A stretch of 64,000 nucleotides of DNA from Candidatus Kuenenia stuttgartensis. GTDB lineage: Bacteria > Planctomycetota > Planctomycetia > Planctomycetales > Planctomycetaceae. The position numbers and the translations under genes were made by a program. Position 1 is the stretch's first letter, and each line of letters begins with the position of its first letter. The notes under the pieces are model-generated. The model worked only from the letters and a program-made list of their open reading frames with translations. It was not told the origin of the DNA and made no database searches. This document shows, one piece after another, positions 34,673 to 56,984 of the stretch. Location of the stretch: assembly GCA_945861465.1 (NCBI GenBank), contig CAMAVB010000003.1, positions 24,741 through 88,740 on the forward strand, written 5' to 3'.

Positions 34673-34793
34673 CTGTTGATTTAATCGCAGGGTGCGTGAA
34701 ACGGAGCGTAACGCACCACTTTGGGACAGCGTGAGAAAACTGGTGTGTTCCGCTGGCGCTGCACACACCCTACTGGAATCACTAAATCAACAG
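34673..34793. repeat. Nested inverted repeat: outer CTGTTGATTTA/TAAATCAACAG, inner GCAGGGTGCGTG.../...GCACACACCCTAC
   Basis: Arms 34673-34683 and 34783-34793. Confidence 0.75.
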
Positions 34794-40612: not shown

Positions 40613-40773
40613 GTCGCTGATCATGCGTGACGAAGTGAGATAAACGTCGACGAATTCCAGGCGGAATCGTCGCGTTGTGACAGGCAACCGCGAGCGATCG
40701 GGATTCCGTGTTTGCGAGCGTGGGTAACTGGCGGAAAGGCGGATGAACAAGTACCTTGCGGTGGCGTTGATTC

Positions 40774-40841
40774 GTTCAACCGCGTGGGCATGGCCCCGCG
40801 CTGTGCAGCACAAGCGCGGCCCGATGGGCACGCGGTTAAAC
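40774..40841. repeat. Hairpin repeat upstream of DUF1559 gene: GTTCAACCGCGTGGGCATGGCCCCGCGC...GCGCGGCCCGATGGGCACGCGGTTAAAC
   Basis: Copies at 41731-41798 and, expanded, 55977-56155. Confidence 0.85.
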
Positions 40842-40874
40842 TTATTACCTCTTACATCTGAAGGAATCGCTGAG

Positions 40875-41711
40875 ATGCTCAAACATCAGACGCAGGCAAT
40901 TCAATCGCTGCTTCATCGTCGTGGTCAGATGAGTACCACAGCGATCGTGTTTCTGGTCCTTGGGATTGTGTTTTTCGTGATGGTTGTTGTGGGTGCCGTT
41001 CTGCTTGCTCTATTGCTGCCAGCCGTCCAGCAGGCACGCGCAGCCGCCCGCCGGACTCAATCGAGGAACAACCTGAAGCAGATTGCACTGGCTTTGCACA
41101 ATTACGAATCCGTGTATCACGGTCTTCCCCTCGGAACGTACTCGAATGAAAAGCTGAAACCTGAGGAACGACTCAGTTGGCAGGCTGCAATCCTGCCGTT
41201 CATGGATCAGTCCGCATTGCATCAGTCGATCAATTCTGAAGAAGCATGGGATGACGAATCCAACAGGAATGCTTCAGAGACCAGGATCCAGGTCTACTTG
41301 AATCCTGGCTATCCTGTTCCTGTCAGCGTGGCTGAAACTCACTATGTGGGGATTGCGGGACTTGGCAAAGACGCACCGATGCTTCCGGCAAACAGCAATC
41401 GCGCGGGAGTGTTTGCATTCAATCGAAAGACGGGTTTCCGGGACATCACAGACGGATTGTCCAATACGATGATGACCAGCGAGGCGTCCGGGCAGTTTGG
41501 TTCCTGGATTGCGGGCGGCAACGCGACGATTCGATCTCTGACGACGAAGCCGTATATCAACGGCCCGGATGGAATCGGCGGTCCATATACCGGAGGCTGT
41601 CAAATCGGTCTCGCCGATGGTTCAGTACGTTTCGTATCGGAGAACATCGACCCGGTCGTCTTTGAACGCCTTGCCACAATGGCTGACGGTCAGGTGATCG
41701 GAGAGTTTTAA
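40875..41711 (+). CDS. DUF1559 domain protein
   Basis: [78 protein letters not shown]. Confidence 0.92.
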   Translation: MLKHQTQAIQSLLHRRGQMSTTAIVFLVLGIVFFVMVVVGAVLLALLLPAVQQARAAARRTQSRNNLKQIALALHNYESVYHGLPLGTYSNEKLKPEERLSWQAAILPFMDQSALHQSINSEEAWDDESNRNASETRIQVYLNPGYPVPVSVAETHYVGIAGLGKDAPMLPANSNRAGVFAFNRKTGFRDITDGLSNTMMTSEASGQFGSWIAGGNATIRSLTTKPYINGPDGIGGPYTGGCQIGLADGSVRFVSENIDPVVFERLATMADGQVIGEF

Positions 41712-41730: not shown

Positions 41731-41798
41731 GTTTAACCGCGTGGGCATCGCCCCGCGCTTTGCTGCACAAACGCGGCCCGATGGGCACGCGGTTAAAC
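41731..41798. repeat. Hairpin repeat GTTTAACCGCGTGGGCATCGCCCCGCG...CGCGGCCCGATGGGCACGCGGTTAAAC
   Basis: 68 bp, same length as 40774-40841. Confidence 0.85.
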
Positions 41799-55976: not shown

Positions 55977-56155
55977 GTTTAACCGCGTGGGCATCGCCCA
56001 GCGCAAGCGCGGGGACTGTCGTCTTCATCGTTTAACGGCAAGCCGCAGGCGTCGGTGCCAGGTTCGTCTACGCCTGCGGCTCGCCGTTAAACGAAAATGC
56101 CGGTGTTGAAGACAAAAACGACAGTCCTGGCGGCCCGCTGGGCACGCGGTTAAAC
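55977..56155. repeat. Nested hairpin upstream of DUF1559 gene, three levels of inverted arms
   Basis: Outer GTTTAACCGCGTG.../...CACGCGGTTAAAC; middle GGACTGTCGT..CTTC/GAAGAC..ACGACAGTCC; inner 56029-56093 CGTTTAACGGCAAGCCGCAGGCG/CGCCTGCGGCTCGCCGTTAAACG. Confidence 0.88.
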
Positions 56156-56189
56156 GAATCACCTTTTGCATCATGAAGGAATCCGTCCC

Positions 56190-56984
56190 ATGCTCAAACA
56201 TCCGACCTCCGCCATTCAATCCCTGCTTCATCGTCGTGGTCAGATGAGTACCACAGCGATTGTGTTCCTAGTTCTTGGCATCGTCTTTTTCGTGATGGTT
56301 GTGGTGATTGGCGTGTTGGTCGCGTTGCTGTTGCCCGCCGTTCAGCAGGCACGCACGGCGGCCAGAAGTACGCAGTCGAAAAACAACCTCAAGCAGATCG
56401 GCCTGGCGATGCACAATTACCATGACGTCTACAGCATGTTTCCGCCAGGTGGGATCTACACGAAAAACGATGAACCGTACAACGCCTGGATGACGAGCCT
56501 TCTGCCTTTTGTGGAGCAGGCAAACCTTTACAGCATGATTGACTTCAATCAGCCCTGGACTGCTCCAAAGAATCAGCCCGTTTTCCAGTCGGTAATACCA
56601 GCCTTCCTCAACCCGAATCTTGGACCGGAGGTTTCTTTGGTCGGCGGAGGGTTCGGGGCATCTCATTATGCCGGTAACTCACAGGTCCTGAAGAAAAACG
56701 GAAGTACGAAGATCTTCGACATGGTGGATGGCACGTCAAACACCATTCTCGCCGGAGAAGTTTCAGGTGGTTTTATGGCCTGGGGGGATCCCGAAAATCG
56801 GCGTGATCCCGCCAATGGTCTTGGCACAGCACCGAATCAATTTGGCGGTCCGGCAAGCGGACGTGGTGGCGTGAATATGCTCCTGGCGGATGGATCTGTC
56901 CGATTCATTTCGGAAAACACTAACCCTCAGACTCTGAAGGCACTGGCCAGCCCCGACGGCAACGAACAGGTCGGGGATTTCTGA
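56190..56984 (+). CDS. DUF1559 domain protein
   Basis: [88 protein letters not shown] ... [27 protein letters not shown]. Confidence 0.92.

Follow-up and report, generated by a model that had tools for sequence, protein, structure and literature searches.

RAYT transposases, REPINs, MITEs and the insertion of IS elements into REPs are all known (PMC3116915, PMC3733652, PMC6006769, PMC1525189), and several described systems come close to the nested palindrome analyzed here. In the REPIN/RAYT systems with GTAG-tagged REPs (PMC3116915, PMC2817692, PMC3733652), pairs of inverted tagged arms occur in high copy number, the Y1 gene is flanked by its own repeat, and repeat and transposase vary in sequence in concert. 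Long inverted repeats on either side of RAYT-like genes, and double inverted repeats, are described for TIRtrons and for REP units coupled to unrelated stem-loops (PMC3733652); the same paper names a planctomycete, R. baltica, as rich in RAYT-like genes and repeats. The REP-targeting insertion sequences ISPpu9, ISPpu10 and ISPa11 are mobile elements inserted inside a REP (PMC1525189); bacterial MITEs (listed in PMC3733652) are non-coding, 70-300 bp long, bounded by terminal inverted repeats and present in many copies; and the Class 3 TnpA-Y1 proteins of Planctomycetes are flanked by atypical high-copy hairpins (PMC6006769). Each of these features has a counterpart in the material described below. 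On nested REP/MITE elements in Planctomycetes, our literature search found only PMC3733652 and PMC6006769 to be relevant.

The locus belongs to the window, by which we mean the whole stretch of 64,000 nucleotides that was analyzed, from an 8.2-Mb planctomycete draft assembly of 474 contigs. Three layers of inverted repeats were confirmed at 55977-56155, with outer arms at 55977-55996 and 56136-56155, middle arms at 56008-56025 and 56115-56132, and inner arms, 96% complementary, at 56028-56052 and 56070-56094. Folded as single-stranded DNA, these 179 nt reach -68.7 kcal/mol, where shuffled sequences average -35.4 (z = -10.2), and 0 of 200 shuffles folded as well as the native strand; the motif GTTTAACVGC occurs 8 times in the window, where 0.18 occurrences are expected. 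Comparison with unfilled copies places the middle and inner layers inside the right arm of the outer repeat, at AAGCGCGG^CCCG, and rules out the apex of the outer loop as their seat. The features are the following.

55977..56012, + strand: outer REPIN, left REP arm and first 8 bases of the right arm (AAGCGCGG)
55977-55983: GTTTAAC tag of the left outer arm, followed by the arm's own hairpin CGCGTGGGC-ATC-GCCC..
56013..56129, + strand: inserted composite, shell A with the inner REPIN as its core; 117 bp, non-coding
56013-56022 and 56118-56127: shell A ends in the composite, GGACTGTCGT and ACGACAGTCC
56028..56094, + strand: inner REPIN TCGTTTAACGGC...GCCGTTAAACGA, the core of shell A
56130..56155, + strand: remainder of the right REP arm of the outer REPIN (GCGGCCCGCTGGGCACGCGGTTAAAC)
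56009..56012 (left) and 56130-56133 (right): possible 4-bp target duplication GCGG, weak as a 4-bp match in GC-rich sequence
40774..40841, + strand: plain outer REPIN in the paralogous leader of a DUF1559 gene, the natural unfilled counterpart
41731..41798, + strand: third outer REPIN copy, unfilled, ahead of similar leader sequence

The outer 68-bp repeat is REPIN-like, an inverted pair of arms each beginning with GTTTAAC, and is present in roughly 100-200 copies; its arm matched the genome 125 times forward and 126 times in reverse, against 3 and 1 matches for a reversed control pattern. Its middle is highly variable and often carries AAATTTC-type tandem units; 7-bp units (AAATTTC, AAATACG) in variable number were seen in the loops of many copies (loci L011-L018 and L261-L289). 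As in a REP, the 5' tag of each outer arm is followed by a hairpin of the arm's own, which is kept in 84 of 96 arms (48 copies) despite a GGG..CCC to CCC..GGG swap in about half of them. One arm of each swap type is found in 36 of the 48 copies, and by direct reading such arms mismatch at the swapped bases if paired together. In the covariation count for the arm hairpin, 94.1% of cells were paired and 45 double changes were scored against 20.7 in shuffles, while slid registers scored much worse than the true one. Since each arm has a self-hairpin with compensatory changes, the 68-bp hairpin is best described as an inverted REP pair (REPIN).

The inner repeat (65-67 bp) forms a second, distinct REPIN-like family, again with inverted arms starting with GTTTAAC and roughly 100-200 copies; its arms matched the genome 184 and 188 times (control, 0 and 1), and both families are high-copy repeats of two inverted tagged arms. 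The self-hairpin of the inner arm is weak (z = 0.84), unlike that of canonical REPs. In named genomes, exact inner-arm matches fall almost exclusively in planctomycete MAGs and isolates; one of these MAGs bears the label Candidatus Kuenenia.

What forms the middle layer is the end of shell A, a TIR element with no coding capacity whose ends read GGACTGTCGTTTTAG. The inner repeat was also seen in shell A2 (ends TGTTGATTTAGT), shell B (ends ACCGGATTCTATGTG, 157-169 bp) and shell C (ends GTAAGCACTGGTGCAGAAG). In a census where every copy was assigned to its best-matching shell, nearly every complete copy of shell A with the inner core spanned 108 bp, counted from TGTCG through CGACA, and such copies recur at many unrelated loci; because the two recur as a constant unit, they represent one element and not two insertions at 55977-56155. 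Thus the nested insertions of the original prediction are supported as two events rather than three. That prediction would have failed had the inner layers never occurred independently; the inner repeat does occur where the middle layer is missing, both in shells B and C and at a RAYT gene, where it has no visible shell.

Cores are exchangeable. Shells A and A2 hold five kinds of core and are mostly 107-108 bp long; A2 has this length with inner, AACCCGAAGCG or GTTTAACCCGA cores, and measures 118-123 bp with two further cores, one of which begins with the canonical GTAG tag. The core of shell C is either inner or outer. Another composite in the window, at 34674-34792, joins an A2 shell (TGTTGATTTA ends) to a core of the GTAG type (GCAGGGTGCGTG...CACACCCTAC), not of the GTTTAAC type. 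In shell B (L107, L111, L113, L118) the inner-core loop was seen in both orientations relative to the shell, as if the hairpin flips. Several cores recur at Y1 genes of the host genome: nine copies of the GTAGGGTG motif surround one of them (L094), a second Y1 locus (L099) has two, and a third (L097) is surrounded by a repeat resembling the GCCGCAGGGCGCTAGC core. Around these genes and one further Y1 gene (L101) different long hairpin families were observed, some as tandem arrays.

Shells A and A2 are short, non-coding, multi-copy and bounded by TIRs, as MITEs are. The possible target duplications are small, GCGG in the window and 4-7 bp (CCGCTGG) at a second locus, L285. No shell wholly without a core was found among 304 loci (about 1.1 Mb). 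One shell A copy (L124, C205:14200-14670) has its inner hairpin shrunk to TCGTTAAACGA, the product that a deletion between CGTT repeats would leave, and on that account was rejected as a core-free shell. Exact end matches in the host genome, from which diverged parents could escape, included no parent or autonomous transposon with shell A/A2 ends, and no long-range shell pairs enclosing a transposase were apparent among them.

The window itself contains the outer repeat in filled and unfilled form, in two paralogous leaders. The genes in ORF 40743-41711 and ORF 56166-56984 both encode DUF1559 proteins (PF07596); the flanks on both sides of the outer repeat align between their leaders, of which the former contains the plain 68-bp repeat and the latter the 68-bp repeat with the composite. 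Judged from this alignment, the plain repeat at 40774 represents a natural empty site for the composite. The original prediction had proposed a search for empty sites in relatives, and it is this paralogue within the window that supplies one; the syntenic site in G053, a genome of the same genus, matches on the tRNA-ligase side alone and gives no clean comparison. L285 provides an independent case of a shell in an outer arm: there the right arm of a different outer repeat contains an A2 shell with a core other than the inner one, bordered on each side by CCGCTGG. At L110 and L115, remnants of outer repeats adjoin or enclose shell B with an inner core. We do not claim a target preference of the shells for REP arms, because the nested cases are too few.

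A search for a REP-associated Y1 transposase, also proposed in the original prediction, was successful. The genome has 19 Y1_Tnp matches, one of which (C94:10350-10985) has inner-type repeats on both sides. Its product scores below the curated cut-offs of both NCBIfam REP_Tyr_transpos (NF047646; E = 2e-10, 40.7 bits, cut-off 80) and Pfam Y1_Tnp (PF01797; E = 2.4e-4, 21.7 bits, cut-off 23), and with these matches and the HUH and catalytic Tyr motifs it is a divergent RAYT member. The clade of this protein, with invariant HxH and YVxxNP, was found in 35 of the 171 genomes searched in the order. An AlphaFold model built from two sequences had a pLDDT of 36.7 and no usable fold. At the C94 locus (L106, C94:7000-13500), apparent type I restriction-modification genes (an HsdR-like frame; names by inspection) adjoin or enclose the RAYT gene and three inner-type REPINs, and at one gene start a REPIN arm contributes 11 in-frame residues.

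In the host genome, in G053 and at L229 the RAYT gene stands between inner-type repeats, and the tagged hairpins change with the protein: TCGTTTAACCCGCAGCCG in G042, CGTTTAGCGGTGAGGCG in G057, and inner-type in G053 and in G067/L229 (probably one species). At L229 (5676-6896) and L323, inner-type repeats near related RAYTs are themselves stacked (GTTTAACGGC... then GTTTAGCGGC...), forming another nested palindrome. In G071, a genome of another genus, two repeats with outer-type arms (GTTTAACCGCGTGCCCATCTGGCCGCGC) lie directly beside a RAYT of the C94 clade (L335); in the host genome none of the 19 Y1 loci is flanked by a pair of outer-type (GTTTAACCGCG) repeats. In an automatic test, tagged hairpins were detected near 11 of 33 clade loci (any hairpin, 16) and near 0 of the 17 other Y1 loci of the host genome (any hairpin, 7); among the hairpin-bearing loci, 11/16 against 0/7 has a hypergeometric chance of about 0.003, ignoring relatedness. 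The hairpin foot is GTTTAAC or GTTTAGC in the inner and outer families and in relatives, not GT[AG]G. By these comparisons, both REPIN families are linked to one divergent RAYT clade.

The view that the nest consists of separately mobile repeats is upheld by the abundance of its outer and inner families, each with more than 100 copies, by the RAYT gene with inner repeats and by the unfilled paralogous site. Another suggestion, that the inner and outer elements target each other's loop or end, found no sign in its favor; the common GTTTAAC is a 5' tag that marks the REPs of a single RAYT clade.

We consider it probable that a composite of shell A and a REPIN landed in an older REPIN, the REPINs having been spread by RAYTs and the shell being a MITE moved in trans. 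At first, a REPIN of the GTTTAACGGC family would have become enclosed by shell A, a short TIR element, and the two would then have multiplied as a single composite. Later, one copy would have inserted in the right REP arm of an older GTTTAACCGCG-family REPIN within a duplicated DUF1559 leader, possibly duplicating GCGG. RAYTs of the divergent clade, which are Y1/HUH single-strand transposases, would have cut and spread both GTTTAAC-tagged families, and the shell would have been moved by another transposase acting on its ends. The separate families, the composite unit, the unfilled paralogue, the linkage to RAYTs and the different cores in one shell are observations; RAYT catalysis, transposition of the shell and the route of cores into shells are what the model presumes. 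Counted against it are the lack of an autonomous shell partner, of a core-free shell and of an outer-flanked RAYT in the host genome, the near-constant shell length, the weak inner self-hairpin and the small size of the possible target duplications.

The near-constant shell length, irrespective of core, is what would be expected under the main rival reading, that the shell is no MITE but makes up, together with its core, a single long "double palindromic" repeat, which RAYT-type enzymes would move in single-stranded form in the style of TIRYTs or TIRtrons, with no separate double-strand history. The identity of several cores with repeats flanking Y1 genes speaks for it too, as do the described precedents of TIR-flanked RAYT-like genes and of REP units joined to unrelated stem-loops (PMC3733652). 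However, the occurrence of differently tagged cores (GTTTAAC, GTAG) in one shell argues against a single RAYT recognizing the whole, and shell ends lie on both sides of none of the Y1 genes examined; we regard this reading as unlikely.

Formation of the layers in place, by mispriming, template switching or gene conversion between palindromes and without transposition, would suit the proneness of long inverted repeats to such events, the apparent hairpin deletion at L124 and the two core orientations in shell B, but is largely refuted by the constant structure and boundaries of shell A with its inner core at so many unrelated loci, and is very improbable. We give just as little credence to a host regulatory RNA element of DUF1559 leaders in place of nested mobile DNA. 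A start codon does follow the outer repeats at 40774 and 55977 at a distance of about 35 bp, and the remaining window copy precedes a similar leader; yet most outer copies are elsewhere, in different shells, there is no terminator-like site at the repeat, and no Rfam family matches at its gathering score, the matches far under gathering scores being to miRNAs only, because of the hairpin shape. The common leader itself results from gene duplication.

A tentative generalization beyond the window, for which we see somewhat less than an even chance, is that Planctomycetota may carry modular miniature elements in which a TIR shell of near-fixed length holds a central REPIN exchangeable among GTTTARC- and GTAG-tagged RAYT systems; the cassettes would come from RAYT enzymes, while a different transposase would mobilize the shells. 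Neither a GTTTARC-tagged REP class paired with its RAYT clade nor shells whose REPIN cores can be exchanged turned up in our literature search, which covered neither preprints nor most subscription journals. A repeat class so tagged and tied to its transposase clade is of interest in a phylum whose REP biology is little studied. In contrast to the GTAG-tagged REPIN/RAYT systems, the tag here is GTTTARC rather than GT[AG]G, the RAYT is divergent, and most inner copies lie inside TIR shells. The C94 RAYT, with Y motif YVERNP and foot GTTTAAC, falls outside Class 3 TnpA-Y1: that class has NHVH, YV..EQ and a CnGA foot (PMC6006769), and the C94 clade has EH[TV]H, YVxxNP and a GTTTARC foot. Unlike ISPpu9, ISPpu10 and ISPa11, the inserted element is a non-coding 117 bp, found nested in too few cases for a target preference to be claimed, and unlike bacterial MITEs it has a REPIN core at its centre, with no parent transposon among exact end matches. 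Finally, the TIRtrons differ from one shell family with several exchangeable cores and one core in several shells; together with the filled and unfilled paralogues, this provides a natural series for asking how REPINs move and palindromes nest, in which the nest in the window represents one nesting step beside a paralogue that lacks it.
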